Assembly (NCBI RefSeq): GCF_900105125.1
Contig: NZ_LT629750.1
Span: 4,491,001-4,555,000, forward strand
Reading direction: 5' to 3'
Origin: Bradyrhizobium canariense
GTDB taxonomy: Bacteria > Pseudomonadota > Alphaproteobacteria > Rhizobiales > Xanthobacteraceae
Length of the DNA: 64,000 nt
A program made the translations under genes and the position numbers. Below are positions 31,820 to 54,403 of this stretch, in pieces. The notes beneath the pieces are model-generated. The model worked only from the letters and a program-made list of their open reading frames with translations. It was not told the DNA's origin and did not search any database. How positions within the stretch are numbered: the first letter of the stretch is position 1; each line of letters begins with the position of its first letter.

Positions 31820-31860
31820 TTTGCACCATACCAACGCATGAGCGTTTCATTGATCGACGA

Positions 31861-37030: not shown

Positions 37031-37368
37031 CTCCACAAGGATCGGAAAATCACCGTCGCCGGGTCCCCATTCGCCTTATGTGCAGTCTCTCCCATGCGGA
37101 AAACAAGGGCGCCAGGCCTGTAAAGGAGCCTTATCGAGCCCGGTGCCCGTGACATCGTGGTCACCGACAAGGAGCGCGAACTCCAGGCCCTGAAGATCCA
37201 GCGTGATGCCCATGATCTCGTCGCCGCCTGTCTTCACCACCGGCACGATCTGGATATTGTCACGTCGCCAGAACTGATGGCCAAGGCCGCGCGCGAGATA
37301 GAACCCGAGCGGTTTCTTCCACTTGATTGCATCTTGATTCTTGCATGGGATCAGGATCAACAACACAA

Positions 37369-38349
37369 TCAGTTCCCTGACCTTGACAAGAGCCGTCGCC
37401 CGAGGTCGTCCGCAAAAGCAAGGCAGGTTTCCGCAAGGGAAACGCGGTCCGCGGTAGAGCGCATGATTGTCGGCGCCACTCGCACGGCAGCGCCGGTCGC
37501 TTCAATCTGATCCTGAAGTTGCGCGTCGATCTCGTCGATGACAATTCCCGAGATCAATCCACGATAGTGTTCCGCGATAGTCGTCACCGAAACCGGTCCG
37601 CCGAGTTCCAGCATAATCTTCGCGGCAGGCCCTTTGATCGCGGTGCCGCCGACGATCGGCGACACAGCCACCACTGGTACCTGCAGCGCCCGCAGCCAAT
37701 CGCGGACGCCGGGAATGGCAAGAATCGGATCGATGCTAAGGTAAGGATTGGATGGACAAAAAATAACGGCTGCCGGTCGATCCGCCGCACCGATCCCGAC
37801 AAGCTCGCGGTTGAATCTTGCCGATGTTGAGCCTTCGTAAGATATCTCCGAGACCGGCACCTCACAGCGCAAGCGCACAAAATAATCCTGGAACGAAAAC
37901 AGATCGTCCCCACTGCGAATAACGGTCCTAACCGGCTCATCGGACATCGGCAGTATCCGCGCGACGATACCAAGGGACCGACACAGTTCGGCGGTCACCG
38001 CCGTCAGCGTCGCGCCCCCATTCAGGCGGCTGGTTCTGATGGCGTGGGTCGCGAGATCGCGATCGCCGAGACGAAACCATTCGGGACCGCCAAGCCGGGC
38101 AACCTGCTCCATGAACGCCCAACTCTCGCCCTGCAGACCCCATCCCTGGATCGGATTCGCCAGTCCGGCCAAGGTATACATCACCGTGTCAAGATCGGGC
38201 GAGATGCGCAGGCCGAGATGTTCAAAATCATCGCCGGTGTTGACGACCACGGTCAGCTTCTCGCGCAACACCTGCGCAAGACCGTCGGCAAGCTTCGCGC
38301 CACCGACGCCACCCGCGAGGGCGATCACCTTACCCGAACTTGCATTCAA
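37369..38349 (-). CDS. cofD: 2-phospho-L-lactate (or phosphoenolpyruvate) transferase CofD/FbiA
   Basis: 326 residues. CofD hallmarks: VIALAGGVGGAKLADGLA (residues 8-25), VVVNTGDDFEHLGLRISPDL, LDTVMYTLAGLANP, FLGDRDLATH-like RLGDRDLATHAIRT, FCPSNPYLSIDPILAIPGV and VAVSPIVGGTAIKGPA. It transfers the phospholactyl or phosphoenolpyruvyl group from the GDP-activated precursor to FO, giving F420-0 or dehydro-F420-0. Its start overlaps the cofE stop by ATGA. Last gene of the F420 operon. Confidence 0.95.
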   Translation of the reverse strand: MNASSGKVIALAGGVGGAKLADGLAQVLREKLTVVVNTGDDFEHLGLRISPDLDTVMYTLAGLANPIQGWGLQGESWAFMEQVARLGGPEWFRLGDRDLATHAIRTSRLNGGATLTAVTAELCRSLGIVARILPMSDEPVRTVIRSGDDLFSFQDYFVRLRCEVPVSEISYEGSTSARFNRELVGIGAADRPAAVIFCPSNPYLSIDPILAIPGVRDWLRALQVPVVAVSPIVGGTAIKGPAAKIMLELGGPVSVTTIAEHYRGLISGIVIDEIDAQLQDQIEATGAAVRVAPTIMRSTADRVSLAETCLAFADDLGRRLLSRSGN

Positions 38350-39104
38350 CGAAACAAATCCTTTTCTATTGGACGCAGCAAACCACGCGCGGTACCACGC
38401 TGTGACGGCACAGCCAGCCCACGCGCCAGCACGACCGGAAATCCCTCACCAGCCTGTCCCATAACCAGCGATGCCGCGGCCGCCAGTTCGTCGGCCCATC
38501 CAACCTCCGTCGTCTCGAGTAGCCGGCCGTAGAGGTCGGGCCTCCCGCGCAAGTCGAGCAGAGTCGGCGTGCCGCTGGCGCCGATGGTCGTGCCGATCGT
38601 GCCGTTACGCCAGGCGCGGCCGATGCTATCGATAACGAGCACTCCGATTTCCACGCCGGCTTGCCTCCTGAACGCATCGCACATGAGCTGCGACGAGCGA
38701 TCTGGATCGAGCGGCAACAGCAGGGCGCAATCCGCGCCGTCGACGTTCGACCTATCGATGCCGGCATTCGCCAGAATCATGCCCAGCCGATGTTCGACAA
38801 TAAGGACGCCAGGCCTCGCGCGAACGACCGCCGCCGACTCGGACAGGATCAACTCGACAAGCCGTACATCCTTTCGAGTCACGGCAGCAAGTTCGATCGC
38901 TCGGGGAGACGGGGTCACATTCCTCAGGTCGACACTGCGGCCTTCCGCCTTGGATACGATCTTTTGTGCGTAGACCAGAATATCGTTCGCCTCGAGCTTC
39001 AATTGCGAGACGCGGAGCGCGGACAAGGTGAGATCGACCAGGTCGTCACCCACCTTGACCAGCGGCACACCCTGTAATGGCTGTAGTAACAGACCTTGCG
39101 CCAT
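38346..39104 (-). CDS. cofE: Coenzyme F420-0:L-glutamate ligase CofE
   Basis: 252 residues of the CofE fold: LLQPLQGVPLVKVGDDLVDL, ILVYAQKIVSKAEGR, RLGMILANAGIDRSN, LLLPLDPDRSS and VIDSIGRAWRNGTIGTTIGA. It adds gamma-linked glutamates to F420-0 with GTP. It has the short archaeal-type length; the C-terminal nitroreductase-like FMN domain of actinobacterial FbiB, which reduces dehydro-F420, is missing, so saturation of the precursor must happen elsewhere or the lactyl/3-phosphoglyceryl route is used (inference). ATG 39104 follows AAGAG; 14 bp after npdG. Confidence 0.95.
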   Translation of the reverse strand: MAQGLLLQPLQGVPLVKVGDDLVDLTLSALRVSQLKLEANDILVYAQKIVSKAEGRSVDLRNVTPSPRAIELAAVTRKDVRLVELILSESAAVVRARPGVLIVEHRLGMILANAGIDRSNVDGADCALLLPLDPDRSSQLMCDAFRRQAGVEIGVLVIDSIGRAWRNGTIGTTIGASGTPTLLDLRGRPDLYGRLLETTEVGWADELAAAASLVMGQAGEGFPVVLARGLAVPSQRGTARGLLRPIEKDLFR

Positions 39105-39121
39105 CAATCTCTTTCACTAGA

Positions 39122-39790
39122 TCAGATTGGAAGTCCCGTAATCCGGATGCCGGCATCGGGCACCTTGTAGGTCCGGTTAATCCAGATTAATGCCGATGTC
39201 AGGCTTTCAGCCACCACCGAGTTGGCAAGCGCACCCGCATCGATACCGCGCAAGCCCGCATCGGCCGCCAGTTGAATGCCGATCTGTCGGGCGTCCTTGT
39301 CATCGCTGGCGACGAGCACGTCACATTCAATGTGTGTGTCGAGATGCTTCAGCTTATGTGCGGAGACGTTTTGAAACGCCGAAACGACGCGAACCTGATC
39401 TCCCAATAACGATTGAACTGCAACTACACAGGAGTCCGATTCCGGCAATTGCACCCTTGAGACCTTGGGCGGGACCAGCGGTACCGTAACATCGATCAGA
39501 ATCTTTCCCTGCAACGCATCCTTCAGGGACTCCACTGTCGACATCTGGCCCGAGAACGGCACAGCCAGGACGACAATCTCGGCAAACTGCACGCCGTCCC
39601 GACTCTCGACGCCCCGGATGGCCTCTGTTCCAAGCAGGCCATTCAGCTCCCGCGCCGCCGTCCTTGCTTTTTCGCCATCGCGAGAGCCGATGACGACATC
39701 GTGACCGTGTCGCGCCCAGCGCAGCGCCAGACCTCCACCTTCGGCGCCAGTTCCACCCACGACACAGATCGTATATTTGGTTGAAGCCAT
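39122..39790 (-). CDS. npdG: NADPH-dependent F420 reductase (NpdG/Fno-like)
   Basis: 222 residues with an N-terminal Rossmann motif ICVVGGTGAEGGGLALRWA, GSRDGEKARTAARELN, AEIVVLAVPFSGQMSTVE, ILIDVTVPLVPPK and VVSAFQNVSAHKL, all as in F420H2:NADP+ oxidoreductases. The family moves hydride between NADPH and F420, so here it would reduce F420 for consumer enzymes. It begins 8 bp after cofGH with GAGGAAG at ideal spacing. Confidence 0.92.
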   Translation of the reverse strand: MASTKYTICVVGGTGAEGGGLALRWARHGHDVVIGSRDGEKARTAARELNGLLGTEAIRGVESRDGVQFAEIVVLAVPFSGQMSTVESLKDALQGKILIDVTVPLVPPKVSRVQLPESDSCVVAVQSLLGDQVRVVSAFQNVSAHKLKHLDTHIECDVLVASDDKDARQIGIQLAADAGLRGIDAGALANSVVAESLTSALIWINRTYKVPDAGIRITGLPI

Positions 39791-39798
39791 TATCTTCC

Positions 39799-42210
39799 TC
39801 AGAGGCTTGCTAAACCGTCGCGGACAGAAGTCCTCGAGCCGAACGGCGTCATAGTGAGTTCGGCCAGCGCGGGCGCGCCAAAGCTCGCCTCGTAGCGTTC
39901 TCTCGGTACCGGCCCGTAAAGCGTCGTGCGCTGCTGCGGCCGCCGTCCCAGCGTCTCGATGAGCGCTTCCATCTGTTCAGGCGCGAATTCCTGGCCATGC
40001 TGCGTGCCCGCGGCGCGTGAAATGCTTTCATTCATCAGGGTGCCACCGAGATCATTAACGCCGCTCTGAAGCAGGGCCGCGAGTCCGGCTTCCCCGAGCT
40101 TGACCCACGACGCCTGGATATTGGTGATCAGCGGGTTGAGGACGAGGCGCGAGACCGCATGCATCAACCGCACTTCACGCCATGTCGGCCCGATGCGCGA
40201 CTGTCCCCGCAGCGACATCGGCGCTTCCATATGCACGAACGGCAGCGGCACGAACTCGGTGATGCCGCCGGTTCGTTCCTGCAGGTCGCGCAGATGCAGC
40301 AAGTGCCTGGCCCAGTTTGCCGGATGCTCGATATGGCCGAACATGATTGTGGACGTCGTGCGTAAGCCCACCTCATGCGCCGCCGCGATGACGTCCAGCC
40401 ATTCCCGGGTGTTGAGCTTGTCGGGGCAGATCGATGCCCTCACCTCGTCATCGAGTATTTCGGCCGCCGTGCCAGGCAACGAGCCGAGACCGGCGTCGCG
40501 CAGAATTTCGAGATAGCGGCGCGTACCCATTCCGAGCGTCGACGCGCCCTGCGAAATCTCCAGCGGCGAGAACGCGTGCACATGCATGCCCGGTACCTCC
40601 GCCTTCACCACACGCAGCAGTTCCAGATACTTTTCGCCGGTATAGCTTGGGTTGATGCCGCCCTGCATGCAGACTTCAGTCGCGCCGCGATCCCACGCCT
40701 CGCGCGCGCGCCGCGCCACTTCATCCAGCGCCAGGTCATAGGGCTTGCCGCGCAGAGTCTCGCTGGTCTTTCCTTTCGAGAACGCGCAAAAGCTGCATCG
40801 ATAGCTGCAAACATTGGTATAGTTGATATTCCGGTTGACCACATAACGGACGACAGCGCCATTCATCCGTGCTCTCAGTTCATCCGCGGCGGAACAGATG
40901 ACATCGACGTCGCCGCTTCGGGCCGAGAACAGCCTGACGATGTCTCCTTCCGACAGGCGCGATCCTGCTGCCGCGCGCTGGAGCAGCGCATCGATGCCGC
41001 GATCCGCTCGCACTGCAGGCGGCGGCGTCGGCAGACGTTCCAGTGATCCCGGCATCCAGCCGTCCTCGCGGACGAATCCGTCGGCATCGACTTCGCGCAG
41101 CACTTTATGCACCAGCGCGCGATCCAGCCATGTGACCGCATTCGCCACATAGGAAGGATAGATTGCAAGACGTTGTTGCAGGGTGCAGCCGGCCCTCTCC
41201 GTCGCGCTTTGAAGCTGTGCGATCTCCGGCCAGGGCGCTTCCGGGTTGACGTGGTCGGCGGTCACGGGGGAAATGCCGCCCCAATCATTGATACCCGAGT
41301 CCAGCAATTCCGGAAAATCCGAATAGCTAAGATTGGGCGGCACCTGAATGTTCATGGCCGCGCCGAAGATGTGCCGAGCGACGGCGGCGGACCAGAGCAG
41401 ATCGTCGATATCCGGTTCCCGGCTGTTTGCAAAGCGCGTATCGGGCTTGGCCCGGAAATTCTGAATGATGATTTCCTGAAGATGACCGTAGCGCTCGTGC
41501 AGATTCTTCAACGCCAGCAGCGATTGAATGCGTTCGAGCCGAGTCTCGCCGATACCGATCAGAATCCCGCTGGTGAACGGAATGCGTTGGCGGCCGGCTG
41601 CGGCGATCATCGCCATTCGAAGCTGCGGGTCCTTGTCAGGCGAGCCGAAATGCGCGCCGCCGCGTTCACCCAGCCGAGGCGAAATCGTTTCCAGCATGAT
41701 CCCTTGCGAAACGCTGACCCTGCGCAGCCGCACAAGTTCTTCCTCGGTCATCACGCCGGCGTTGACGTGAGGCAGGAGGCTGGTTTCCTTCAGGATCAGC
41801 GCGCAAACCGCAGCCAGGTAGTCCATCGTCGTTGCAAAGCCGAGTTCGCGCAGCGCCTCGCGCGCGGCCCCATAACGCAATTCCGGCTTATCGCCCAGTG
41901 TGAACAAGGCTTCGCGACATCCCATCTTCTCGCCCGCCCGGGCAATGGACAGTACGTCTTCAGGCGACAGGAACGGCTTTCGAACCTGCCGGGGACTTTG
42001 GGCAAAGGTGCAGTAACCGCACACGTCCCGGCAAAGCTGAGTCAACGGAATAAACACCTTGCGCGAATAGCTGATCGCTGAGCCATGACCTTCTCGCTTC
42101 AAAGCCCGTGATCGACCCAGCAATTCCTGAAGCGGCTGGGCTTCGAATGTCGCGAGCCGCAGACGAGCTTCCTCGTGCGAAAACAGACGCGTGATTTCTG
42201 CCGTCAGCAT
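39799..42210 (-). CDS. cofGH: FO synthase, fused CofG-CofH (FbiC type)
   Basis: 803 residues with two radical SAM domains in CofG-then-CofH order. The first 4Fe-4S motif is CRDVCGYC (Cys 60, 64, 67) within FIPLTQLCRDVCGYCTFA; the second is CSYRCSFC near residue 468 after RNINYTNV. Other family motifs are GDKPELRYG, VNAGVMTEEELVRLR, AWDRGATEVCMQGGINPSY and MFGHIEHPANWARHL. It joins 5-amino-6-ribitylaminouracil with tyrosine to make FO, the F420 chromophore. This fused form is typical of actinobacteria and of the few F420-making proteobacteria; methanogens keep two genes. AAGGGA precedes the ATG. Confidence 0.96.
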   Translation of the reverse strand: MLTAEITRLFSHEEARLRLATFEAQPLQELLGRSRALKREGHGSAISYSRKVFIPLTQLCRDVCGYCTFAQSPRQVRKPFLSPEDVLSIARAGEKMGCREALFTLGDKPELRYGAAREALRELGFATTMDYLAAVCALILKETSLLPHVNAGVMTEEELVRLRRVSVSQGIMLETISPRLGERGGAHFGSPDKDPQLRMAMIAAAGRQRIPFTSGILIGIGETRLERIQSLLALKNLHERYGHLQEIIIQNFRAKPDTRFANSREPDIDDLLWSAAVARHIFGAAMNIQVPPNLSYSDFPELLDSGINDWGGISPVTADHVNPEAPWPEIAQLQSATERAGCTLQQRLAIYPSYVANAVTWLDRALVHKVLREVDADGFVREDGWMPGSLERLPTPPPAVRADRGIDALLQRAAAGSRLSEGDIVRLFSARSGDVDVICSAADELRARMNGAVVRYVVNRNINYTNVCSYRCSFCAFSKGKTSETLRGKPYDLALDEVARRAREAWDRGATEVCMQGGINPSYTGEKYLELLRVVKAEVPGMHVHAFSPLEISQGASTLGMGTRRYLEILRDAGLGSLPGTAAEILDDEVRASICPDKLNTREWLDVIAAAHEVGLRTTSTIMFGHIEHPANWARHLLHLRDLQERTGGITEFVPLPFVHMEAPMSLRGQSRIGPTWREVRLMHAVSRLVLNPLITNIQASWVKLGEAGLAALLQSGVNDLGGTLMNESISRAAGTQHGQEFAPEQMEALIETLGRRPQQRTTLYGPVPRERYEASFGAPALAELTMTPFGSRTSVRDGLASL

Positions 42211-42307
42211 GATCGTCCCTTCGGGCCGCGCGCTTCCCGCGTTCCGGTCAACATTAGATGATTAGATACCCCCGGTAACAAGCACATCTACATGTCTCCC
42301 GTGTAGG

Positions 42308-43840
42308 TCAACTCTCGAAGATCGGGGCCGGAGCAGGCGGTTCCTCGACGCCATGCTTGCGCCATTTCAAATAGATCTGCGTTCCGATCAGGATGACACA
42401 AAGCGCGAGAAAGACGGCGCTGATCGGCCGCTCCACGAATACTGCGAAATCGCCCCGCGAGATCAGCATCGTTCTGCGGAGATTTTCCTCGAAGCGGGGC
42501 CCGAGAACGAAACCGAGAAGTATCGGCGCTGGATGAAAGCCAAGCGTCAGCAGCACGTAGCCGGCAATGCCGATCGCGAGCGTTTCGCCGACCTGAAACA
42601 GGTCGTTGTTCGTGCTGTAGACCCCGACGCAAACGAAAAACAGGGCGCTGGGATATAGATACTTGTAGGGCACCGTAAGCAGATTTACCCACAGCCCGAT
42701 CAGCGGCACGTTGAGAACGACAAGAAGAATATTTCCGACCCAGAAGCTTGCGATCAGGCCCCAGAAAATATCGGGATGGTCACTGATCAGTTGCGGACCG
42801 GGGCTAATTCCCTGAATCGTAAGCGCCGCAAGGAGCAATGCCATTACCGCGTCGCCGGGAATGCCGAGACTCATCGTCGGAATGAAATCGCCCTGCACCG
42901 CGGAATGCGTCGAGGCTTCCGGAGCGGCAACTCCCTCGATCGCGCCGCGGCCGAATCTCTCGGGCGTCTTCGAGAGCTTCTTTTCAGTGGCATATGAGAT
43001 GAACGAAGCGATCGTCGGGCCCGTTCCGGGAATGAGCGCGCACAAACTGCCGATGATCGTCCCGCGCAGCATTGGAAGCGATGCCGCCTTGAGATCCGCC
43101 CGGCTAGGCCGCATGTCCCGGAGTCGGAGCTTCGCCCGAGACGCATGAAGAGGAACGATCTTGTTTACGCTTTTTAGAAACTCGGCGACGCCGAACAAGC
43201 CGAGAGCCAGCGCGACGACGTCGATGCCGTCGGCCAGATTAAGCAGACCGAACGTGAATCGTTCCGTTCCGTTCAACGCGTCCGAGCCGACGAGGCCGAG
43301 CGTCAGGCCGAGCGTCGTCATTGCAACGCCCTTCAGCGGAGACCCGCGCGTCAACGTCGAGCCTGCCAGAAGCCCCAACAGCATCAGTGAACAAATTTCC
43401 GGAGGACCGAATTTCAGCGCCACGCTGACAAGCACGGGCGCGAAAAAGATCATTTCGGTTATGCCGAACGATGCGCCGACGAACGACGCCAGCATCGTGA
43501 TCCCCAAAGCGGTTCCGCCCCTGCCTTGCTGCGTGAGCGGGTAGCCATCCAGGCAGGTCACCGCATGCGGCGGGTGACATGGCAGGTTCAGCAGGATCGA
43601 GCAGATCGCTCCGCCATATTGGGCGCCGTAATAGATGCCCGCCAGCATCAGAATGGCCGCCACAGGCGGCATCGAAAATGTAACGGGAAGCAGAATCGAA
43701 ATCGCCGCCATCACCCCCATGCCGGGAAGGACGCCGACGAGATTGCCCATCAATACCCCGGCGAGACACGCCAGGAAGTTGTGCGGCTGGAATGCCACTC
43801 CAAAACCATGAGATAGATCCGCTATCGCCGTCGCAAACAT
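42308..43840 (-). CDS. Tripartite tricarboxylate transporter, large membrane subunit TctA
   Basis: 510 residues and about 12 spans with the TctA hallmarks: GNLVGVLPGMGVMAAISILLP, IYYGAQYGGAICSILLNLP, TCLDGYPLTQQGRGGTALG, SLCALIPGTGPTIASFISYA and FIPTMSLGIPGDAVMALLL. It is the secondary-transport channel of a TctABC system. The stop of tctB is 4 bp upstream. It lies 97 bp before cofGH on the same strand, so one transcript could cover both transport and F420 synthesis. Confidence 0.93.
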   Translation of the reverse strand: MFATAIADLSHGFGVAFQPHNFLACLAGVLMGNLVGVLPGMGVMAAISILLPVTFSMPPVAAILMLAGIYYGAQYGGAICSILLNLPCHPPHAVTCLDGYPLTQQGRGGTALGITMLASFVGASFGITEMIFFAPVLVSVALKFGPPEICSLMLLGLLAGSTLTRGSPLKGVAMTTLGLTLGLVGSDALNGTERFTFGLLNLADGIDVVALALGLFGVAEFLKSVNKIVPLHASRAKLRLRDMRPSRADLKAASLPMLRGTIIGSLCALIPGTGPTIASFISYATEKKLSKTPERFGRGAIEGVAAPEASTHSAVQGDFIPTMSLGIPGDAVMALLLAALTIQGISPGPQLISDHPDIFWGLIASFWVGNILLVVLNVPLIGLWVNLLTVPYKYLYPSALFFVCVGVYSTNNDLFQVGETLAIGIAGYVLLTLGFHPAPILLGFVLGPRFEENLRRTMLISRGDFAVFVERPISAVFLALCVILIGTQIYLKWRKHGVEEPPAPAPIFES

Positions 43841-43844
43841 CGCG

Positions 43845-44309
43845 TCACCAGTTCAGCACGGGGAGAGGGATTTTCAGCCCGTATGAAAACAGCGCGATGC
43901 CGAGAACGCTCATGCCGGCAGCGAGGACGGACGCACTCTTGAAGCTGGAATTTTTATCGCCAAGCGCGGAAACGAAGACGCATGCGAATGTCGCCGGCAG
44001 CAGGCCGTACCTTTCGGCGAGAAAAATGAAGAGCGACATCCCGGCGATAATGCAGACCCATCCCCGCCACTCAGGAGCGCCGATATCTTCCGGCTCGTGC
44101 TGGTTCGCTGCGGCGCTACCCGCGCTGACGAAGATAAGTACCCCTACCGCCAGCAGAACGCCTCCCAGTATTATCGGGAAGAACCCTGAACCCATCATCT
44201 CTGCTGTACCGAGATCGTAGCGGCTGGCCTGGGCGATCGTTCCCAGACCGATCAGCGCTATCAGGCCGCCGGCATAGTGATCCTTGTGACCTCCCACGAA
44301 CGGCTTCAT
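43845..44309 (-). CDS. Tripartite tricarboxylate transporter, small membrane subunit TctB
   Basis: 154 residues with four predicted membrane segments (GGLIALIGLGTIAQASRY; FFPIILGGVLLAVGVLIFVS; GWVCIIAGMSLFIFLAE; SVLAAGMSVLGIALFSYGL). GTAEMMGSGFFPIILGG is the usual TctB motif. It pairs with TctA downstream and takes ligand from the binding protein upstream. Confidence 0.9.
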   Translation of the reverse strand: MKPFVGGHKDHYAGGLIALIGLGTIAQASRYDLGTAEMMGSGFFPIILGGVLLAVGVLIFVSAGSAAANQHEPEDIGAPEWRGWVCIIAGMSLFIFLAERYGLLPATFACVFVSALGDKNSSFKSASVLAAGMSVLGIALFSYGLKIPLPVLNW

Positions 44310-44418
44310 CTATCCGATTTCCCGCCGTGCAACTCGAAAATTGATTCGCCCCAAACCACGTCGAACGCGTTACCTCCGTGGCAGAATGTAACCCGCGACA
44401 ACGCGGTGGGCCGCATCT

Positions 44419-45387
44419 TCATTGCGGCTTGACGCCCGCCGCTTCAAGCACGGCGTGGTACTTTTTTACTTCGGAAATCAGCAGCTCGCGCAGTTCTTCC
44501 GGGCTGCTGGGTGCTGGCTCAAAGCCCTGAGCATCAAAGGCCTTGATCATCTCGGGCGACTTCACGGCCGTGGCGATCGACTGGTTAATGAAGTTGACAA
44601 TTTCGGGCGGCGTGTTGGCAGGCGCCAGGATCGAACTCCAATTCGCCATATCGAAGCCTTTTTGAATGGTCTCATCGAACGTCGGCACATCAGGAAGGAT
44701 CGCGGAACGCTTGATGCTGGTCACGCCCAGCGCCTTCAACGTGCCGGCCTTGATCGATGGCAACGCGCTCGGATCGCCGAAGCCGAAGTCAACGACATTT
44801 CCCAGCACCGCCGTCAGCAGCGGCCCCGAGCCGTTGAAGGGAACGTGCCGCGCATCGATCTTGGTAGCGGCGACCATCATTTGCGCGGCCAAATACGGAC
44901 CGGCACCGATCCCGGTCGTTCCGTAGTTCAATTTACCCGGCTTGCTGCGCGCCAGCGCCAGCAAATCAGCCATCGAATTCACGCCGAGCGAGGGATTGAC
45001 CAGCAATATGAACGGCGAGGTCGACAGGCGCGAGATCGGCGTAAAGCTCTTGACGGGATCGTATCTGAGGTTGCTGTAGAGGCTGGCAGCAACGGTGTGA
45101 GAAACGCTGTTTAAATAGAGCGTGTAGCCATCGGGCGCCGAATTGGCCACGTACGCCGCGCCGATGGTCGTCCCGGCTCCGGGCTTGTTCTCGACGATGA
45201 CTTGCTGATTCCAAATCTTGCTGAGCTGCGCGGCCAGCGTTCTTGCCTGCGCTTCCGATCCACCTCCCGGCGGAAAGGGAATGATCAGTCGAACAAATTT
45301 GTTGGGATAGTCGAGCGCCTGGGATGCCTGCGCAAAGCCGCATAGCAATATAACCGACAATACGATACGGCTCAGTTTCATGACCAC
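44419..45387 (-). CDS. Tripartite tricarboxylate transporter substrate-binding protein (TctC/Bug)
   Basis: 322 residues with a signal peptide (LSRIVLSVILLCGFAQASQA). Bug-family signatures: VRLIIPFPPGGGSEAQARTLA, QQVIVENKPGAGTTIGAAYV, APDGYTLYLNSVS and LNYGTTGIGAGPYLAA. Bug proteins bind carboxylates such as citrate, glutamate or aspartate derivatives and aromatic acids. With an isoaspartyl dipeptidase upstream, an amino-dicarboxylate or peptide-like acid is a fair guess, not shown. The start is a GTG after GGAGA. Confidence 0.92.
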   Translation of the reverse strand: MVMKLSRIVLSVILLCGFAQASQALDYPNKFVRLIIPFPPGGGSEAQARTLAAQLSKIWNQQVIVENKPGAGTTIGAAYVANSAPDGYTLYLNSVSHTVAASLYSNLRYDPVKSFTPISRLSTSPFILLVNPSLGVNSMADLLALARSKPGKLNYGTTGIGAGPYLAAQMMVAATKIDARHVPFNGSGPLLTAVLGNVVDFGFGDPSALPSIKAGTLKALGVTSIKRSAILPDVPTFDETIQKGFDMANWSSILAPANTPPEIVNFINQSIATAVKSPEMIKAFDAQGFEPAPSSPEELRELLISEVKKYHAVLEAAGVKPQ

Positions 45388-45609
45388 GTCGCTTCTCCAT
45401 TCACTCTCGGCGCGCCCTCTTTCAGGAGATCGCAGAACGTCGCTTACGAACGCTCTGTTTTGCGATCAGGGGCGCAAACACGGGCAGTTCCGACGGAAGC
45501 GGGATCATGCCCGCCGCGCTCGAAACCTTTTGAACGATTGGCCGCAATCAAGGAGATCAAAGCCCTCGCTCAACAATTCCTGAAATCGGCTTTGACGATA
45601 TCGGATACG

Positions 45610-46764
45610 CTATTCGAAGACTCCTTTGACGACCGCCTGTCCGCCATCCACCATCAACTGACCCATGGCGATAACCTTATCGATGGTCAGATCCTCATTG
45701 AGAACGACGAGATCGGCATCCGATCCCGCAGCGATCACACCCTTCCGCGGATAGAGTCGCAAATGCCGGGCCGGATTTGCGCTCACTATGCTTAACGCGG
45801 ATGCAATATCTATGCCTGCATCCACCATGCTCTTGAATTCATAATGGAGAGCGCTGGTCTCCCAGCGCGCCATTGTGGAGTTGCCCCGCGCGTCCGACAG
45901 GTGGGGGTAAACTCCTCCGCCATCGGTGCTCATGCTGAGCCGTTCGAGCGGCACGCTTTTCCCGAGCAAGAACTCCACCGCGTCGGGACACGCGACGAAT
46001 CCCGGAATGGTTCTGATGGTGGTGAGATCTATCGGTCCGCCCAGTTCGCCCCACTTGACCATCTGGTCAAGCACGGCGCCGTTTCGATTGCAGTGCGTGG
46101 GCAAGTAGGTGTTGGGCGGCAGATCGCTCTGTTCGACCGCGTCGAACAGCAGTTGAATGCCTTTCTTTCCCGGTCCGATATGGATGTTGACGAATCCGCC
46201 GCGACCGGCCAGGCGCCCGGCGATGCGGGCGTCGGCACCGATGCGGATGATCTCCTCAAGTGTCGGCTGCGACGAACGTTCGTCCGCGATCGCCACTTCG
46301 CCGATGCCGAGCGCATTGGAAACCAGGACGATGTCCTTCTTGAGATCGCCGGTGAAGGAAGGAAGCGGCAGATCGTAAGCGCCGAGAAGAATGTAAGCCG
46401 ACATTCCTTCGAGCTCGAGAGAGCGCGCTTTCGCCAGCAAGCCCATCAAGTCTCGCGTCAACCCGTCGGCGCCCAGCAATCCGACCACCGTGGTTGTTCC
46501 GTTGGTGGTGAATTCCGTGAGATTCAGTTCGGGCCCGCGGGTGATTGGGCCATTGCTGCCGCCGCCACCAAGTATATGAACATGGCTGTCGATGAACCCA
46601 GGCGCCACTATTTTGCCCTGACAGTCAATTTCCCTGACGTCGGGCAGAGCAACTCGCGGCAAAGAGCTCTCGACGGCTGCGATACGATGATCCGCGACAA
46701 GCACATCGCGAATCCCGACTTCCCTGGGATTATGAAGACGACAGTTCCTCAATACGGTGATCAC
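45610..46764 (-). CDS. iadA: Beta-aspartyl (isoaspartyl) dipeptidase-like amidohydrolase
   Basis: 384 residues strongly resembling IadA: APGFIDSHVHILGGGGSNG with the metal HxH at about residue 62, LTEFTTNGTTTVVGLLGADG, LPTHCNRNGAVLDQ with a metal His, and the catalytic Asp in LSMSTDGGG; C-terminal KGVIAAGSDADLVVLNED. IadA is a binuclear zinc enzyme that cleaves isoaspartyl dipeptides. The bridging carbamylated lysine of IadA probably corresponds to GPGKKGIQ. It overlaps the M20 peptidase stop by ATGA. A related beta-linked or cyclic amide is possible as the true substrate. Confidence 0.85.
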   Translation of the reverse strand: MITVLRNCRLHNPREVGIRDVLVADHRIAAVESSLPRVALPDVREIDCQGKIVAPGFIDSHVHILGGGGSNGPITRGPELNLTEFTTNGTTTVVGLLGADGLTRDLMGLLAKARSLELEGMSAYILLGAYDLPLPSFTGDLKKDIVLVSNALGIGEVAIADERSSQPTLEEIIRIGADARIAGRLAGRGGFVNIHIGPGKKGIQLLFDAVEQSDLPPNTYLPTHCNRNGAVLDQMVKWGELGGPIDLTTIRTIPGFVACPDAVEFLLGKSVPLERLSMSTDGGGVYPHLSDARGNSTMARWETSALHYEFKSMVDAGIDIASALSIVSANPARHLRLYPRKGVIAAGSDADLVVLNEDLTIDKVIAMGQLMVDGGQAVVKGVFE

Positions 46765-47945
46765 GGTTTCGCATCCTCCTGCATCAAGATGAGAGTCCGC
46801 AAAAGAGCGCCGGCTCCAACTGGCAGGCTTTCAGGATCCAGAAACTCTTGCAGGGTGTGAATGCTTCCTCCGGAAGTGACACCCATCGAAGCCGCGGCTA
46901 TGCCAAGAGAAAGAGGGATGTTGGCGTCGGTACTGCCCGGCAACAACGACCCCGTTACCCCAACCCCCGCAAACCCGTCCAGGATAGCCCGGATCAGCGG
47001 ATGACTGGAGGCGATCTCTCCTCCCGGGCGATCTCCAATTACGGAAATTGCAACGTCAATCCGTTCGTCGGCAGGAATGGCGCCGACGATGCCCCGCACT
47101 TCCGCTTCAAGCGCCTGCACGACAGCATGATCCAGCGACCTTATATCGAGCGAGAGACTGGCCTGCTGGGCGATCGCATTGACGGAGGTGCCTCCGTTCA
47201 CGGTTCCGATATTGAGAACGGTCTTCGGATTCGAAGGCACCGCGATCTCGCTTATTTTTCCGGCGACGCGTGCAAGCACATGCACGGCGCTCGGTTTGCC
47301 AGCATCCGCCCAGCTATGACCGCCCGCTGTCTTGACCGCGATTTCCAGCCGCCGCACGCTGATCGCGATGTGATTGACGATACCCAAATTTCCATCGACG
47401 GCGATAACCGCCGAGACCCGATCGCCGTATCGATCCATCAAGGCGCGCATGCCGCGAAGATTGCCCAAACCCTCTTCGCCGACAGAGAATGCCAATATGA
47501 GATCGCACTCCAATCTCACGCCGTTGCGGCGCAACAGTTCCGGCAGCAGAAGCGTGATCGCGGCGGATGCACTATTGTCCCGGATTCCCGGCGCCCGCCA
47601 ATACCGGCCATCCCAGCGGGGCTCGACATTGGTTCCTTCGGGAAACACCGTATCGATATGCGCAACGAGCATGATCGGAGGAGCTCGACACTCGTCCGCA
47701 GGCAGCAAGGCCGTCACGTTGGATAGATGATCGATTTCGACCTGCTTGAGGCCAAACTCGCCAAGCCGGTCGGCGATGTATTGCGCGCGGTCTCCCTCGC
47801 CAAAGGTGGGAGACGGTATTCTGCAGATGGCGAGCGCTTCCTGAACAAGCGCTTCCCCGAAGCCGATATCCACCTCGATCAAATCAAGCAAACCTTGCCC
47901 ACCACTGTTTATTGCACCGTTGCAAACTTGATATGATGATAACAT
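46761..47945 (-). CDS. M20-family metallopeptidase/amidohydrolase
   Basis: Up to 394 residues. M20 motifs: metal/catalytic LVAHIDTVFPEGTNVE, GIRDNSASAAITL, AFSVGEEGLGN with the general-base Glu, and C-terminal LPGSTDANIPLSLG and GGSIHTLQEFLD. A dimerisation domain lies at about residues 200-310. It hydrolyses dipeptides, N-acyl amino acids or carbamates. The ATG at 47945 falls inside the conserved 27-bp promoter motif, so the true start is probably downstream; GTG 47873 (codon 25) is a candidate. First gene of the run leading into iadA, tctCBA and the F420 genes. Confidence 0.85.
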   Translation of the reverse strand: MLSSYQVCNGAINSGGQGLLDLIEVDIGFGEALVQEALAICRIPSPTFGEGDRAQYIADRLGEFGLKQVEIDHLSNVTALLPADECRAPPIMLVAHIDTVFPEGTNVEPRWDGRYWRAPGIRDNSASAAITLLLPELLRRNGVRLECDLILAFSVGEEGLGNLRGMRALMDRYGDRVSAVIAVDGNLGIVNHIAISVRRLEIAVKTAGGHSWADAGKPSAVHVLARVAGKISEIAVPSNPKTVLNIGTVNGGTSVNAIAQQASLSLDIRSLDHAVVQALEAEVRGIVGAIPADERIDVAISVIGDRPGGEIASSHPLIRAILDGFAGVGVTGSLLPGSTDANIPLSLGIAAASMGVTSGGSIHTLQEFLDPESLPVGAGALLRTLILMQEDAKP

Positions 47946-48240: not shown

Positions 48241-50517
48241 TTACTGCCGAGCTTCCTCAATCAATTGCCATAGGCGCGGAGGGGAAAGCGGCAGCTCGTT
48301 CGGCTGGACGTTCAGATGAAACAGGGCGTCGGCCACCGCATTGCCGATCACGCCCGCGACCGGAATTATCCCGCCCTCGCCTGCGCCCTTGGCTCCCAGG
48401 GGATTGTTGGGGCACCGCTTCAACTCAAGCGTAATCGACCGGATGTTGGGAAAGTCGGATGCCGTCGGCAACAGATAGTCGGCAAACGAGCCGGTCAAGA
48501 GCTGGCCTTCGGAATCATAAGCGAGATGCTCCAGAAAGGTCCCGCCGAGGCCCTGCACGATCGACCCGATCGCCTGTCCGTGCAGCGTCAGGGGATTGAT
48601 CATCCGGCCGACGTCCTCGACCGAGAGATAATCGATCACCTTGACATGGCCTGTGCCGGGATCGACCGCGACATATGCCGCCTGCGTGCCGTATGCCCAG
48701 GTATGCTTGCTGTTGAAGAACGAGGCTTCGACCTCCAGCCGAACGTCCGAAAGATTTGAAAACGTCAGGTGATTGCCGGCCTGGCTGACCTCGTCGCCGT
48801 CGATCGAGACATCGGCGGGACTGCAATTGAAGCGTTTCGCAGCGGTCTCGCGAATAAGTTCCTTCAATTTCTCCGCCGCGAGCAGAATTGACGAGCCGCC
48901 CATCACCGTCGAGCGCGAATGATACGAGCCGTAGCCGTCCTTCACATGATCGGTCGATCCGTGATTGATCGTGATCCTCTCAAAAGGAATCTCCATCGCG
49001 TCGGCTGCAATCTGGGCCATGATCGTTTCCAGTCCCTGGCCGATCGCGGACGAGCCGAGATACACCGAAAGCGAACCATCCGTTTCGAGAACGAGCCGCG
49101 CGTCTTCCTTTGGTCCCGCGGCACCGCCCTCTATGAAGCTGCCGATTCCGAGGCCGTGATAATAGCCGTCGATCAACCTGCCGCGCAGTTTGCTCCTGTC
49201 TTCCCATTTGAATTCCGCGAGACAACGATCGAATACCGCGTGATAGTCGCCGCTATCGAGTTCGTTCGTACTTTCGAACGGGGTCACGGTCGGAAGCGGA
49301 TATGGCATCTGGCTGTCCGCGACCAGATTGCGGCGTCGCAACTCAAGACGATCCATCTCAAGATCTCTTGCAACGATATCGATCAAGCGCTCGCGGGCGA
49401 AATCGGCCTCGAACCTTCCCGGCCCCCGGTAGCTGCCGGCCGGAGTCTTGTTTGTCACCAGCATCGAACTCCTGAGATCGACGCTCTCGAAACAATAAGG
49501 ACCGGACATGCATTGCGCGACATTCCGCGGACCAACTGAACCATTTGTCCGGAGATAGGCGCCAATGTCCGCCCAGATCTGACCGCGGAGTCCCAGAAAG
49601 CGCCCGTCACGGCTCACCGCGATCTCAACGTCACACTCAATGTCGCGCGAGTGATTGGCGCTCATCATGTGTTCCCGCCGATCTTCTGTCCACTTCACGG
49701 GTCGCCGCGCGATCATGGCCGCGGCGGGAATCAGATAGTCCTCGGGATAAAATTCTCCCCGCGACCCGAAACCGCCGCCGACATCGACCTCGACCAGCTT
49801 TACGGCGTGCTCGTCCAGGCCGAGAGCAGCGGCAAGCACGCGACGATTGTAAAAGGCCGTCTTTGCCGTGCCCCAGACCGTCATTTCACCCGCAACAGCA
49901 TTCCATTCGGCAACGAAGCCTCGCGGCTCCATGAACATTGCGGTGTGGCGCTGAACTTTAAACCGTTCGCGTCGCACGTAATCTGCAGACTTGAACGCCG
50001 CATCGGCGTCGCCGAGACAAGCCCTCCAGGTAATTGCGGTGTTGGAACCATGGCCTTCGAAAAGAAACGACGGCTCGGTTTCAGCCTGTTCCCGGCCGGC
50101 GACTGCAGGCAGCGTTTCAATATCGAGAGCGATATGCTCCAGGGCATCTTCAGCGATCGCCGCTGTATCGGCGATCACGACCGCAACGGGCTCTCCGACA
50201 TAGCGAACCTTCCGGTCCGCAAGCACCGGCTGATGAAACGGCTCAAGCTCGGGCAGCGATTGCAAGCGCACGGGAATGCGCGGGACGAAATCGCCCAGAC
50301 CGCCGGCGGTCAGGACATGCCTGACTCCCGGTAGTTCGAGAGCGCGGGTGAAGTCGATAGAGCGGATCGTCCCGTGAGCAACGGAACTGCGCAGGATCAC
50401 CGCATAAAGCTGGTCAGGCCGATTGACGTCTGCGACGTAGGTGCCCCTGCCTCGCACCATGCGAAGGTCCTCGACGCGCTCCATCGGACGGCCGACGTAG
50501 GAATTCGAGACCTTCAT
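48241..50517 (-). CDS. Molybdenum hydroxylase large subunit (CoxL/XdhB-like, class II)
   Basis: 758 residues from ATG 50517, which shares one base with the stop of the 2Fe-2S subunit. Domains: Ald_Xan_dh_C at the N-terminus (GRPMERVEDLRMVRGRGTYV) and molybdopterin-binding regions (VDVGGGFGSRGEFYPEDYL; PAGSYRGPGRFEADFARE; GQGLETIMAQIAADA; GAKGAGEGGIIPVAGVIGNA with the active-site Glu). GSYRGPGR in place of AYRCSFR marks it as a xanthine-dehydrogenase-like hydroxylase, not CO dehydrogenase. It hydroxylates a heterocycle or aldehyde with water-derived oxygen. A longer frame extending to 50877 overlaps the small-subunit gene. Confidence 0.93.
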   Translation of the reverse strand: MKVSNSYVGRPMERVEDLRMVRGRGTYVADVNRPDQLYAVILRSSVAHGTIRSIDFTRALELPGVRHVLTAGGLGDFVPRIPVRLQSLPELEPFHQPVLADRKVRYVGEPVAVVIADTAAIAEDALEHIALDIETLPAVAGREQAETEPSFLFEGHGSNTAITWRACLGDADAAFKSADYVRRERFKVQRHTAMFMEPRGFVAEWNAVAGEMTVWGTAKTAFYNRRVLAAALGLDEHAVKLVEVDVGGGFGSRGEFYPEDYLIPAAAMIARRPVKWTEDRREHMMSANHSRDIECDVEIAVSRDGRFLGLRGQIWADIGAYLRTNGSVGPRNVAQCMSGPYCFESVDLRSSMLVTNKTPAGSYRGPGRFEADFARERLIDIVARDLEMDRLELRRRNLVADSQMPYPLPTVTPFESTNELDSGDYHAVFDRCLAEFKWEDRSKLRGRLIDGYYHGLGIGSFIEGGAAGPKEDARLVLETDGSLSVYLGSSAIGQGLETIMAQIAADAMEIPFERITINHGSTDHVKDGYGSYHSRSTVMGGSSILLAAEKLKELIRETAAKRFNCSPADVSIDGDEVSQAGNHLTFSNLSDVRLEVEASFFNSKHTWAYGTQAAYVAVDPGTGHVKVIDYLSVEDVGRMINPLTLHGQAIGSIVQGLGGTFLEHLAYDSEGQLLTGSFADYLLPTASDFPNIRSITLELKRCPNNPLGAKGAGEGGIIPVAGVIGNAVADALFHLNVQPNELPLSPPRLWQLIEEARQ

Positions 50518-50990
50518 CACTTTTCCCCGTCGCGGGCATAGTGACTGCGGGCATCCAGAATAGCCTCCACGATCGGAATGTAGCCGGTGCACCTGCACAG
50601 ATTGCCCGACAGGACCTCTCGTATCCTTTCCTGGTCGGCGTCCGGCTCGTTGGTAAGAAGCGCGTGGGCGGTCGTGATGAAACCCGGCGTACAAAAGCCG
50701 CACTGAAGCGCATGGTGTTTGCGAAACGCTGCCTGCAGGGGTGACAACTCGTCTCCGGACAGCCCTTCGATCGTGACAACCCTTTCGTCCTGTGCCTGCA
50801 CGGCCAGCATCAGGCAGGAGCGGACGGCCTCGCCATTGACGAGCACGGTGCAAGCCCCGCAAACACCATGCTCGCATCCGACATGAGTCCCGGTCCGCCC
50901 CAAACGATCCCTGATACAGTCGACAAGCGTCGTGCGGGGTTCGACGTCCGCGTTGACCGGATCTCCGTTGAGTTCAAATGCAACTTGCAT
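50517..50990 (-). CDS. Molybdenum hydroxylase 2Fe-2S subunit (CoxS-like)
   Basis: 157 residues from ATG 50990. Two 2Fe-2S clusters are complete: plant-type CEHGVCGACTVLVNGEAVRSC (in two adjoining pieces, about residues 40-60) and the helical cluster CGFCTPGFITTAHALL with GNLCRCTGYIPIVEAI. It carries electrons from the molybdenum site to FAD. Order M-S-L matches many carbon-monoxide-dehydrogenase-like and nicotinate-type hydroxylases. Confidence 0.95.
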   Translation of the reverse strand: MQVAFELNGDPVNADVEPRTTLVDCIRDRLGRTGTHVGCEHGVCGACTVLVNGEAVRSCLMLAVQAQDERVVTIEGLSGDELSPLQAAFRKHHALQCGFCTPGFITTAHALLTNEPDADQERIREVLSGNLCRCTGYIPIVEAILDARSHYARDGEK

Positions 50991-51007: not shown

Positions 51008-51865
51008 TCAGGAGGTCGAGTGTTGAAGGCCGCGAGCCAGTAACGTACCCAGCAGCGCGCGACGATAGCCACCGGGCGCATGGATGTCGGACGGCGGATC
51101 GATCGATTCCTTCGCTGCCGCTGCCACGGCAGCAATGCAGTCTTCCGTGACCGCATTTCCGTTTAGCGCCGCCTCTGCCGCGGACAGTCTGATCGGGCAA
51201 TCGGCAATGCCGATCGCGCCGATGTGCGCGTCGACCGCGCAATTCCTGTGATCCAGATCATAGAAAAGCAGCACCCCGGCCATCGCGAAGTCGCCTTTTC
51301 TGCGGGCAAACTCCCGAAACGCCCAGCGTCTCGTGGCGGGCCACGCCGGAAGGTGGAGCTCGGTAACAATTTCGTCCGGCTCCAGACTCGTCTGCAACGG
51401 GCCGGTAAAGAACGAGGATGCTTTTTCTACTCGGGTGCCACCGCTTCCCACGATGGTCATCTCGCCGTCGCAGGTCAACGCCACGCCGGGCATCTCGGCA
51501 GACGGGTCCGCATGCGCGAGCGAACCGCCGATCGTTCCCCGGTTACGGACCTGATAATGCGCAACGTGCTTTATGGCTTCCGCAAGCAAAGGATGACTAC
51601 GGACCAATCGCCGGTCATTCTCGATGTCGCACCATCGGACCTTGGCCCCCAACCTGACACCATCGTCGCCGATCGTGATGGTATCGAGATCCTTCAGGTG
51701 CTTGAGATCGACAAGCAGATCGGGCGTAGCGAGACGGAATGCCAGCATCGGCATCAGACTTTGGCCGCCCGAAATCAATTTTGCATTCCCGTTGCCCGAG
51801 GCCAGCAGATTGACAGCTTCAGCCAAAGTCGAAGGCGATGCGTACGCAAAGCTTGGCGGCTTCAT
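51008..51865 (-). CDS. Molybdenum hydroxylase FAD-binding subunit (CoxM-like)
   Basis: 285 residues. FAD motifs AKLISGGQSLMPMLAFRLA (about residue 30) and RNRGTIGGSLAHADPSAEMP (about 110), then the CO_deh_flav_C domain (RKGDFAMAGVLLFYDLDHRN). It delivers electrons to an external acceptor. First gene of the three-subunit enzyme; a 271-bp gap separates it from the F420-type oxidoreductase gene, which faces the same way. Confidence 0.94.
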   Translation of the reverse strand: MKPPSFAYASPSTLAEAVNLLASGNGNAKLISGGQSLMPMLAFRLATPDLLVDLKHLKDLDTITIGDDGVRLGAKVRWCDIENDRRLVRSHPLLAEAIKHVAHYQVRNRGTIGGSLAHADPSAEMPGVALTCDGEMTIVGSGGTRVEKASSFFTGPLQTSLEPDEIVTELHLPAWPATRRWAFREFARRKGDFAMAGVLLFYDLDHRNCAVDAHIGAIGIADCPIRLSAAEAALNGNAVTEDCIAAVAAAAKESIDPPSDIHAPGGYRRALLGTLLARGLQHSTS

Positions 51866-52136: not shown

Positions 52137-53147
52137 CTAATTTCGGGGAGCGAACAGATTGAGAATTGCTTCATTCTGATGCCAGGCCGCGGGCCTGACG
52201 ATCGGAAGATGTACCCCGGCGTCCCGATACTCCTGAATCTTCTTCACGACATCGGCCGGCGTTCCAGCTGCTGTCAGACCCTGGACTGTTTTCTTGCTGA
52301 GGGCCTTTGCCAAGGCTTCCTTGCCTCCCGTCGCATACGCGGAATGAAGACGCGGCAATTCATCCTCGTCGATATAGGGTTCTCCGACGCGCTGTCGCGC
52401 CTTTGACTGCGAGACGGCCTTTTCGGGCATGAACTTGTTAGCGACTTCCCAACGCACCGCGTCGATGGCGGCATCCGGGTCGTCCTCGACCGAGGTATTG
52501 ATGAGAATAGCAACCTGAAAATCGTTCCAGTCGCGCCCCTCTTCCTCGGCCGCCGCTTTCACGATCTTGATAGCGTTGGCTGCATACTCCGGGGATGAAA
52601 CGGTATTGAGAAGGACTCCATCAGCCAATTTGCCAGCAAGCCGAAGACCGGTCGTGCTCGTCGCCGCGAACCAAAGTGGAATCCTGGAACGAACGGGCTT
52701 CCAGCCCAATTGGGCGCCTTCGATTTTCAACAGCTTGCCCTGGTAATCGACCCTGTCTCCAGACAGCATCAGCCGGAAAACCTCGACCCATTCCCGCAGG
52801 GCTAGCGCGGGCGTCACATGCTCGAATCCGTGGCGCTTGGCATGAACCTCTGATGCGGCCCCCGGGCATATCACCATTCGCCCGCCGGAAAACTCGTCGA
52901 GGGTCGCCGCCGTCTGCGCCATCAATACGGGGCTGCGAAGACGGACAATCTGGGTACAGCCCAAACTGATTTTATTGGTGGCCATCGCAAACGCCGCCAT
53001 GGCCGTGACCGAGTCACGCATCAGCGCCCACGTCTCGGAGAAAAATCCAATCTCAAAATTGTGATCCTCCGCCGCACGTACTGCGTTGGCAAAGTCCTGG
53101 ATACGAACGGTGTGGTCGTAGCCCGTAGCAAAACCGATCCTCGTCAT
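52137..53147 (-). CDS. LLM-class oxidoreductase, probably F420-dependent (Mer/FGD type)
   Basis: 336 residues of the luciferase-like TIM barrel in its F420 subgroup: IQDFANAVRAAEDHNFEIGFFSETW, ISLGCTQIVRLRSPVLMAQTAATLDEFSGGRM (in pieces), VICPGAASEVHAKRHGF, RIPLWFAATSTTGLRLAGKLADGVLLN, and C-terminal GTPADVVKKIQEYRDAGV as in methylene-H4MPT reductase-like proteins. No flavin reductase is adjacent, while complete F420 enzymes are encoded 10 kb away. It probably uses F420 or F420H2 on a metabolite of the molybdenum hydroxylase (inference). Divergent from the RpiR gene. Confidence 0.85.
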   Translation of the reverse strand: MTRIGFATGYDHTVRIQDFANAVRAAEDHNFEIGFFSETWALMRDSVTAMAAFAMATNKISLGCTQIVRLRSPVLMAQTAATLDEFSGGRMVICPGAASEVHAKRHGFEHVTPALALREWVEVFRLMLSGDRVDYQGKLLKIEGAQLGWKPVRSRIPLWFAATSTTGLRLAGKLADGVLLNTVSSPEYAANAIKIVKAAAEEEGRDWNDFQVAILINTSVEDDPDAAIDAVRWEVANKFMPEKAVSQSKARQRVGEPYIDEDELPRLHSAYATGGKEALAKALSKKTVQGLTAAGTPADVVKKIQEYRDAGVHLPIVRPAAWHQNEAILNLFAPRN

Positions 53148-53536: not shown

Positions 53537-54403
53537 ATGAAGTTGCAAGAAAGAACCCTGCTCGAGCGTTTAAACGTCATCGAGCGATCGCTGTCCGTCA
53601 CCCACAATAAAATCGCGACGTTCCTTTTGAAAAGCGGACACAAAGCGGCATTTTTGACGGCGGCGGAAATCGCATCGAGCGTCGGCGCAAGCGAATCGAC
53701 GGTCGTCCGCTTTGCGAGAATGCTCGGCTTCCACGGCTATCCCGAACTGCAGGATTTCCTGCGCCAGGGGCTGCTTGAAACTCTGTCCCCCGTGGACCGC
53801 CTCATCGGCAGCGACGAAATCAAGGATAAGTCGAAACTCGTCGAGCATCTAGCCGATCGGGAAATCTCCAATCTTCGTGCGGCGCTCGAAACCGTCGACT
53901 GCAAGGCTCTGCAGGAATTGGTGGATGCCATTTGCGCTGCGCGAACCTGTTATATTGTCGGGCTTCGGTCATCGCGTTCGCCAGCCGTCCTGCTGGGCCA
54001 CTATCTCACCAAGATCGCGCCCAAGGTCACGGTCATTGTATCGAGCGATTCCATGTTCGAGCAGCTGAGTTGGGCAAACGAAAAGGATGTCCTGATCGCA
54101 TATTCCTTTCCCCGATACAGCAAGGCGACGGTGGACGCGATTCAGATCGCCAAGTCCGTCGGAGCGCCCACTAGCGCCATTACCGATTCGCAGAATTCGC
54201 CAGCCGCTCAACTCAGCGACTACAGCCTGATCGCCCCTGCCATTTCCGACTTCTACGGCAATTCTTTCGTGGCCGCCGTTGCCATTACCAATCTTTTACT
54301 CGCATTCTGCGTGCACGCCCAGCCGGACGCGGTTCGACAAAATCTCAACCGTTTGGAAAAGGTAGCCTCCCTAAGCGAGCGCTTCGTTCGCTTGACTGGT
54401 TGA
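53537..54403 (+). CDS. RpiR-family transcriptional regulator
   Basis: 288 residues. N-terminal HTH_6 domain: LERLNVIERSLSVTHNKIATF, AAEIASSVGASESTVVRFAR and MLGFHGYPELQDFLRQ (residues about 8-85). A SIS phosphosugar-binding-type domain follows (CYIVGLRSSRSPAVLLGHYL; DVLIAYSFPRYSKATVDAIQ; AITDSQNSPAAQLSDYSL). RpiR proteins sense sugar phosphates or similar compounds. AGGGAG abuts the ATG, so the TTG at codon 3 may be the true start. It probably controls the LLM, molybdenum hydroxylase and peptidase-F420 units through the shared 27-bp motif. Confidence 0.9.
   Translation: MKLQERTLLERLNVIERSLSVTHNKIATFLLKSGHKAAFLTAAEIASSVGASESTVVRFARMLGFHGYPELQDFLRQGLLETLSPVDRLIGSDEIKDKSKLVEHLADREISNLRAALETVDCKALQELVDAICAARTCYIVGLRSSRSPAVLLGHYLTKIAPKVTVIVSSDSMFEQLSWANEKDVLIAYSFPRYSKATVDAIQIAKSVGAPTSAITDSQNSPAAQLSDYSLIAPAISDFYGNSFVAAVAITNLLLAFCVHAQPDAVRQNLNRLEKVASLSERFVRLTG

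Follow-up and report, generated by a model that had tools for sequence, protein, structure and literature searches.

F420 genes at the distal end of a catabolic gene run in Bradyrhizobium canariense: probably one of three modules that share a coenzyme pool and a cofC supplied in trans

Bacterial gene clusters for the coenzyme F420 encode FbiC (CofGH), FbiA (CofD), FbiB (CofE) and FbiD (CofC). The npd genes of Rhodococcus and Nocardioides are genes of picrate degradation: NpdG and an F420-dependent hydride transferase are encoded inside the degradation set and the F420 synthesis genes are found elsewhere in the genome. We analyzed a stretch of 64,000 nucleotides (hereafter, the window) that covers positions 4,491,001 to 4,555,000 of the Bradyrhizobium canariense genome, a single contig of 7.84 Mb, and that carries the F420 genes cofGH, npdG, cofE and cofD. 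The encoded proteins belong to the same families as those of the known bacterial clusters and CofGH is fused as in FbiC, but CofE lacks the fused nitroreductase domain, the operon lacks an intact cofC, the genome contains three such modules, and the F420 genes of the window lie within a run of catabolic genes. As in the picrate system, NpdG and a putative F420-dependent hydride transferase are found inside a degradation set, but here the module itself carries the F420 synthesis genes. Two other described systems are related: Mer, the F420-dependent methylene-tetrahydromethanopterin (H4MPT) reductase, which is the closest relative of solved structure to a luciferase-like (LLM) oxidoreductase of the window, and the 3-phosphoglycerate (3PG) type of F420 of Mycetohabitans, which is also made by CofC and CofD in a proteobacterium and for which no dehydro-F420 reductase is known.

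F420 genes are already known in Alphaproteobacteria; what is new here is their presence in catabolic modules and the proposed supply of cofC in trans. Passages of a 2021 review record F420 in this class (Oligotropha and Paracoccus, traces; PMC8498797) and state that, outside Actinobacteria, the F420H2-dependent reductases and F420-reducing dehydrogenases of the producers were uninvestigated and that the role of F420 needs experiments. A passage of another article notes a complete F420 pathway in forest-soil Rhizobiales (PMC5794936). Comparable modules were not found in the titles and the beginnings of abstracts of the open-access literature on F420 in Bradyrhizobium, Rhizobiales, Alphaproteobacteria and Proteobacteria, and no open-access paper was found that combines F420 with a dihydropyrimidinase and luciferase-like enzymes.

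Our analysis suggests that the window carries a catabolic operon ending in F420 genes, which is one of three modules that draw on the same F420 pool, with cofC provided in trans; we consider this the probable explanation. The CofD, CofE and CofH models each identified three loci over their cut-offs, located in the same three regions of the genome: cluster A (the window), cluster B (5.07–5.10 Mb) and cluster C (7.07–7.10 Mb). Cluster C presents the order cofGH-npdG-cofE-cofD-cofC, and cluster B contains cofGH, cofD, cofE, an npdG match (52%) and a cofC located about 9 kb from cofGH. In a search of the whole genome for CofC/FbiD, two genes exceeded the TIGR03552 cut-off, one at 5.08 Mb and the other at 7.09 Mb. 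The absence of cofC reported in the earlier note therefore holds for the window, which has no intact copy, but not for the genome, and the view that the missing gene leaves the pathway open is not supported. The three clusters with CofGH, CofE and CofD, together with the two intact CofC, support a shared pool, since all three modules would depend on the CofC of clusters B and C.

The four F420 genes of the window are intact, tightly packed on the minus strand and above curated cut-offs (Table 1), with 8 nt between cofGH and npdG, 14 nt between npdG and cofE, and an overlap of 4 nt between cofE and cofD. CofGH also scores above the TIGR03550 and TIGR03551 cut-offs, and both of its radical S-adenosylmethionine CxxxCxxC motifs (4Fe-4S) are invariant columns across the three copies of this genome. 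The window CofE matches the solved CofE 7uld over nearly its full length, and the window CofD is matched along most of its length by the solved CofD 3c3d and FbiA 6uvx. The F420 gene set that had been noted in an accessory region is real and apparently intact.

Candidate users of the coenzyme are found next to these genes. The genome contains about 33 LLM genes (34 matches, with one gene in two pieces), and the four that score highest with the Mer model TIGR03555 (159, 149, 125 and 71 bits; next, 67) sit in clusters A, B, C and C, at 3.6–12.1 kb from cofGH. The chance that three random spots all fall within 10.5 kb of an LLM gene is 0.00044, in a test that was chosen after the clusters were seen and that omitted one LLM piece of the 34 matches. 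The window LLM is the most Mer-like of the genome. All ten of its top-scoring NCBIfam models describe F420 families (TIGR03555, 159.6 bits, relative to 76.7 bits for the best flavin mononucleotide (FMN) type model), and its best PDB match is Mer (8qpl; E = 2.6e-40). Family and linkage indicate that this enzyme likely uses F420. At this locus, F420 synthesis is linked to specific catabolic genes, each module offers one or more candidate F420 enzymes, and the three modules of Bradyrhizobium give a testable answer to the role of F420 in such bacteria. A further luciferase-like gene, outside the Mer-like matches, is located at 17283–18206 of the window, 22.5 kb from cofGH.

The F420 genes constitute the distal end of a run of 13 minus-strand genes that extends from 53147 down to 37369 (15.8 kb; Table 1). 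Gaps across the run range from -4 to 295 nt, and the run may form one transcript. We propose that the cof and npd genes are the end of a catabolic operon of about 15.8 kb, probably controlled by the divergent RpiR regulator. TctCBA would import a substrate that the molybdenum hydroxylase (Mo-hydroxylase), the M20 enzyme and the amidohydrolase would process, and the Mer-like LLM would transfer hydride with F420, as its family and linkage suggest. Based on family assignment, CofGH would produce FO, CofD and CofE would complete F420, and NpdG would keep it reduced with NADPH; the GDP-activated side chain would now be provided by the CofC that the other modules encode.

Table 1. Features of the F420 and catabolic gene run in the window (Mo-hydroxylase, molybdenum hydroxylase; ORF, open reading frame)
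Feature	Position in window	Strand	Basis
RpiR/SIS transcriptional regulator, divergent from operon	53537..54403	+	Pfam HTH_6, SIS; 98% identical and syntenic in G448
Mer-like LLM oxidoreductase, likely F420 user	52137..53147	-	PF00296
Mo-hydroxylase FAD subunit	51008..51865	-	PF00941, PF03450
Mo-hydroxylase [2Fe-2S] small subunit	50517..50990	-	157-aa ORF; assigned from Cys motifs by eye, without profile
Mo-hydroxylase large (molybdopterin) subunit	48241..50460	-	PF01315, PF02738, PF20256; profiles run on longer ORF 48241-50877, start set as in G448
M20 amidase/deacylase	46761..47945	-	PF01546, PF07687; ArgE/DapE-like, under NCBIfam cut-offs
Isoaspartyl-dipeptidase-like amidohydrolase	45610..46764	-	TIGR01975 380.4 bits, cut-off 331.25
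TctC solute-binding protein	44419..45387	-	PF03401
TctB	43845..44309	-	PF07331
TctA	42308..43840	-	PF01970
cofGH, FO synthase fusion	39799..42210	-	803 aa; NF006687/PRK09234 1118.8 bits, cut-off 1018
npdG, NADPH:F420 reductase	39122..39790	-	TIGR01915 205 bits, cut-off 149.8
cofE, F420-0:L-glutamate ligase	38346..39107	-	TIGR01916 250.6 bits, cut-off 180.65
cofD, FO phospho-side-chain transferase	37369..38349	-	TIGR01819 286.7 bits, cut-off 257.45
cofC 5' remnant	37310..37366	-	directly behind cofD stop; remainder lost or unrecognisable

We compared this arrangement to related loci, keeping the best 80 of 576. An LLM gene (E < 1e-10) was found in the fetched flank of 55 of these loci, and in 35 of the 46 that extend over at least 20 kb. 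Catabolic partners occur alongside F420 genes in genomes G063, G333 and G108. In G108, the genes cofGH-cofC-M24-PALP-TctC-TctA-Mo-hydroxylase-LLM-LLM-npdG-cofE-cofD follow each other on one strand, such that F420 genes bracket the catabolic genes, with cofGH-cofC at one end and npdG-cofE-cofD at the other. The G333 locus, L224, is a mosaic module: its CofGH is 79% identical to that of the window and its CofD and CofE only about 50%, and M24, PALP and LLM genes are interleaved among its F420 genes.

Cluster B contains a different set of catabolic genes: a Mer-like LLM, a class III aminotransferase, a deaminase, a BmpA-type ABC importer, an amidohydrolase of the dihydropyrimidinase/hydantoinase-like kind (below all cut-offs in a scan that lacked its first part) and a carbamoylase-type M20 enzyme (TIGR01879, 220 bits; cut-off, 204). 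This gene set suggests a cyclic ureide that is reduced, ring-opened and decarbamoylated. It is similar to the reductive breakdown of pyrimidines or hydantoins, except that an F420-type LLM takes the position of dihydropyrimidine dehydrogenase. More tentatively, it is possible that aerobic Alphaproteobacteria carry such operons as self-contained units that bring their own coenzyme, combining a transporter, a Mo-hydroxylase and the genes for F420 synthesis with a Mer-like F420H2-dependent reductase that acts on an N-heterocycle or lactam and with amidohydrolases that open the ring, that cluster B encodes a reductive pathway of the pyrimidine/hydantoin type, and that the modules complement each other. 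If so, the LLM of cluster B would replace the NAD(P)H-dependent dihydropyrimidine dehydrogenase, and modules from different donors would supply each other's missing coenzyme genes within one cell.

As an accessory trait, the F420 gene set has been both gained and lost. Of the 265 genomes of the genus, 42 encode CofE at E ≤ 1e-15, and 40 of these exceed the cut-off; for the 296 genomes sampled from the family, the numbers are 81 and 79. The rarity in Proteobacteria claimed by the earlier note was thus overstated. Within the genus, three copies of CofE were found in this genome only; the family sample contains one further genome with three copies (G063) and seven with two, one of the second copies being below the cut-off. 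In genome G503 (locus L192; G503:C1:5833001-5852000), a second CofC over the cut-off is located apart from the only CofGH match, and both a hydantoinase-like amidohydrolase and an LLM match lie within 10 kb.

The gene phylogeny further suggests that the three modules have distinct histories. CofGH of cluster A shares 56% and 60% identity with the other two copies, and the CofGH tree (96 rows, after L108, L133 and L144 were dropped from 99) places the three copies apart. Copy A groups with two loci of the genus (L190 and L224) and with genus g28 of the family (10 rows; support, 99), and copy C forms a 3-row group with L167 and the Aquamicrobium row L100 (support, 100). A recent duplication as the origin of the three clusters is ruled out by these identities and by the tree, and separate horizontal acquisition of each module is most likely. 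These results suggest how the genes of one coenzyme pathway can come to be distributed among several transferred modules, where those that another module provides are lost.

The closest comparison is offered by G448, a congener that carries the window-type module. Positions 39108–50471 and 50472–54601 of the window present, respectively, 96.3% and 97.0% DNA identity to G448. Homology breaks off right behind npdG, where G448 lacks 241 nt of cofE; 52 nt of the remainder (window 38815–38866) match at 92%, the DNA beyond this remnant is unrelated, and no cofD was found within the 8.6 kb fetched behind the break. The G448 genome contains two CofGH, one CofE and one CofC, and its second cluster is complete and C-type. 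Between the two genomes, the ratio of nonsynonymous to synonymous divergence (dN/dS) is 0.101 for cofGH, 0.034 for npdG (the lowest of the seven genes measured) and 0.064–0.159 for five catabolic and transport neighbours. This suggests that cofGH and npdG have been under selection although the G448 copy lost its tail genes. The synonymous divergence (dS) is 0.07–0.14 for window-type genes and 0.60–0.83 for C-type genes. These values suggest a more recent move for the window-type than for the C-type module. Redundant tail genes would erode under the proposed explanation, and the G448 copy would be further along this path, having lost cofE and cofD and kept cofGH and npdG under selection. By eye and without a profile, one frame of the G448 DNA that follows the cut cofE (from 11406 of locus L190) resembles the beginning of a tyrosine recombinase and contains a stop further on.

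The window operon contains no intact CofC/FbiD gene, only a 5' remnant directly behind cofD. Using a position matrix built from 85 CofCs, the N-terminal motif that starts at 37363 ranked first among 127,954 six-frame positions, and its 'PCK' variant is found in five of the 85 CofCs, including both of this genome. CofD with room behind it is available in 51 of the 80 related loci, and cofC lies directly behind cofD on the same strand in 49 of these 51. We interpret the window cofC as a gene that was truncated early. A diverged cofC that is still intact was rejected: the profile of the 85 CofCs, run over six frames of the window, returned noise (best domain score, 1.2 bits), and the remnant did not appear among the 25 best domains listed. 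We also rejected a more extended cofC pseudogene at this site, because shuffled sequences reach the score of a frameshift-tolerant alignment and the open reading frame behind cofD has no CofC match among the fetched loci. This 96-aa frame (37076–37366), which begins with the remnant, scored -0.9 bits; 114 of 3110 reported shuffles (5000 made) scored at least as high.

Several observations weigh against parts of the proposed explanation. The cofC remnant is unrecognisable past its first 12–20 codons. In the frameshift-tolerant alignment, 9 and 11 of 200 shuffles scored at least as high as observed with the two CofCs of this genome, and 55, 57, 122 and 155 of 200 with four other CofCs; by tblastn, the two own CofCs match the site at E = 1.2 and 2.9 only. 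The 96-aa frame matched no CofC among the fetched loci (best other match, E = 0.48) and has a HicA match below threshold (12.3 bits; cut-off, 27). As nothing is significant past about 20 codons, our claim is limited to the 5' end of cofC. In the five genomes of genus g28, which have the closest CofD (67–68%), cofC is located about 14 kb away within the cluster instead of behind cofD, making the expected place of cofC weaker than the 49 of 51 loci suggest. The window LLM scores far under the Mer equivalog cut-off (159.6 relative to 348.7 bits), hence its substrate is probably different. At E ≤ 1e-60, 710 relatives match this LLM, with Mer and 'flavin-dependent' names mixed among the 120 matches listed. 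Five gaps of the 13-gene run measure 97–295 nt, which makes a single transcript less certain. The catabolic partners are not general, as the fetched flanks of the 80 related loci contain a Mo-hydroxylase in four, a Tct gene in one, a hydantoinase-like gene in two, and relatives of PALP, M24 and M20 in none. In the CofGH tree, copies A and C fall into a common 15-row clade (support, 98) that also includes an Anaerolinea row and L084, and copy B is found elsewhere on a long branch, which makes its placement and neighbour unsure. Finally, no dehydro-F420-0 reductase of known type was found in the genome. The FbiB nitroreductase domain, which the earlier note had described as absent from the window, was likewise not found in the whole genome, where the FbiB C-terminal model TIGR03553 gave three matches, none over the cut-off; the best of these is BluB and was rejected as a candidate.

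Alternatively, the window F420 genes could be redundant leftovers decaying on a transferred island, with an FMN-dependent LLM. The truncation of cofC in the window and of cofE and cofD in G448 fits such a scenario, as do broken clusters elsewhere in the genus (G105, with stops inside CofE, and G375, with stops). However, the four window genes are open and over their cut-offs, the dN/dS of cofGH and npdG between the two genomes is low, and the LLM scores far higher with F420 than with FMN models. We consider this alternative improbable. The G105 cluster (locus L173; G105:C156:1-10473) is in pieces, with stops and frame breaks.

The earlier note had left the chemistry of the side chain open. Excerpts of a published study identify Ser162 as the residue diagnostic for 3-phosphoglycerate, with Met91, Cys95 and His145 as further determinants (PMC8764529). 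In contrast to the Mycetohabitans 3PG enzyme, which has Ser162 and His145, both CofCs of this genome align Gly at the position of Ser162, and Thr or Val at the position of His145. A 3PG-type CofC was ruled out on these residues, and 2-phospholactate or phosphoenolpyruvate (PEP) is the likelier substrate given the Gly. A 3-phosphoglyceryl side chain is less likely, which narrows the possibilities.

This bears on a second alternative, in which each module produces F420 species suited to its own enzymes, differing in tail length or side chain, instead of simply feeding one pool. Part of the same study reports that CofD is able to filter the activated intermediate (PMC8764529), and the copies are much diverged (window CofD, 45% and 63% identity to the other copies; window CofE, 49% and 66%). 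Nevertheless, the window module has no intact CofC and must draw on the others, the stretch fetched for the G448 module contains neither CofC nor CofD and no complete CofE, and both own CofCs share the non-3PG residue pattern. Distinct coenzyme species per module appear unlikely, somewhat less plausible than decay. It is very unlikely that the window CofGH supplies FO for a photolyase antenna rather than for F420 chemistry: FO antennas require CofGH only and the G448 module keeps cofGH without cofE and cofD, but npdG has been kept at the lowest dN/dS, the genes are linked to catabolic genes and a Mer-like LLM, and no photolyase was found among the profiled neighbour genes (the genome was not searched for photolyases).

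No tRNA genes that could mark island borders were found within the window. At positions 26174–34567, the window contains genes for a biotin carboxylase, a biotin-lipoyl protein, a gamma-glutamyltranspeptidase, an aminotransferase and an NMT1-type importer, with a GntR regulator nearby. This group looks like another, separate catabolic set.

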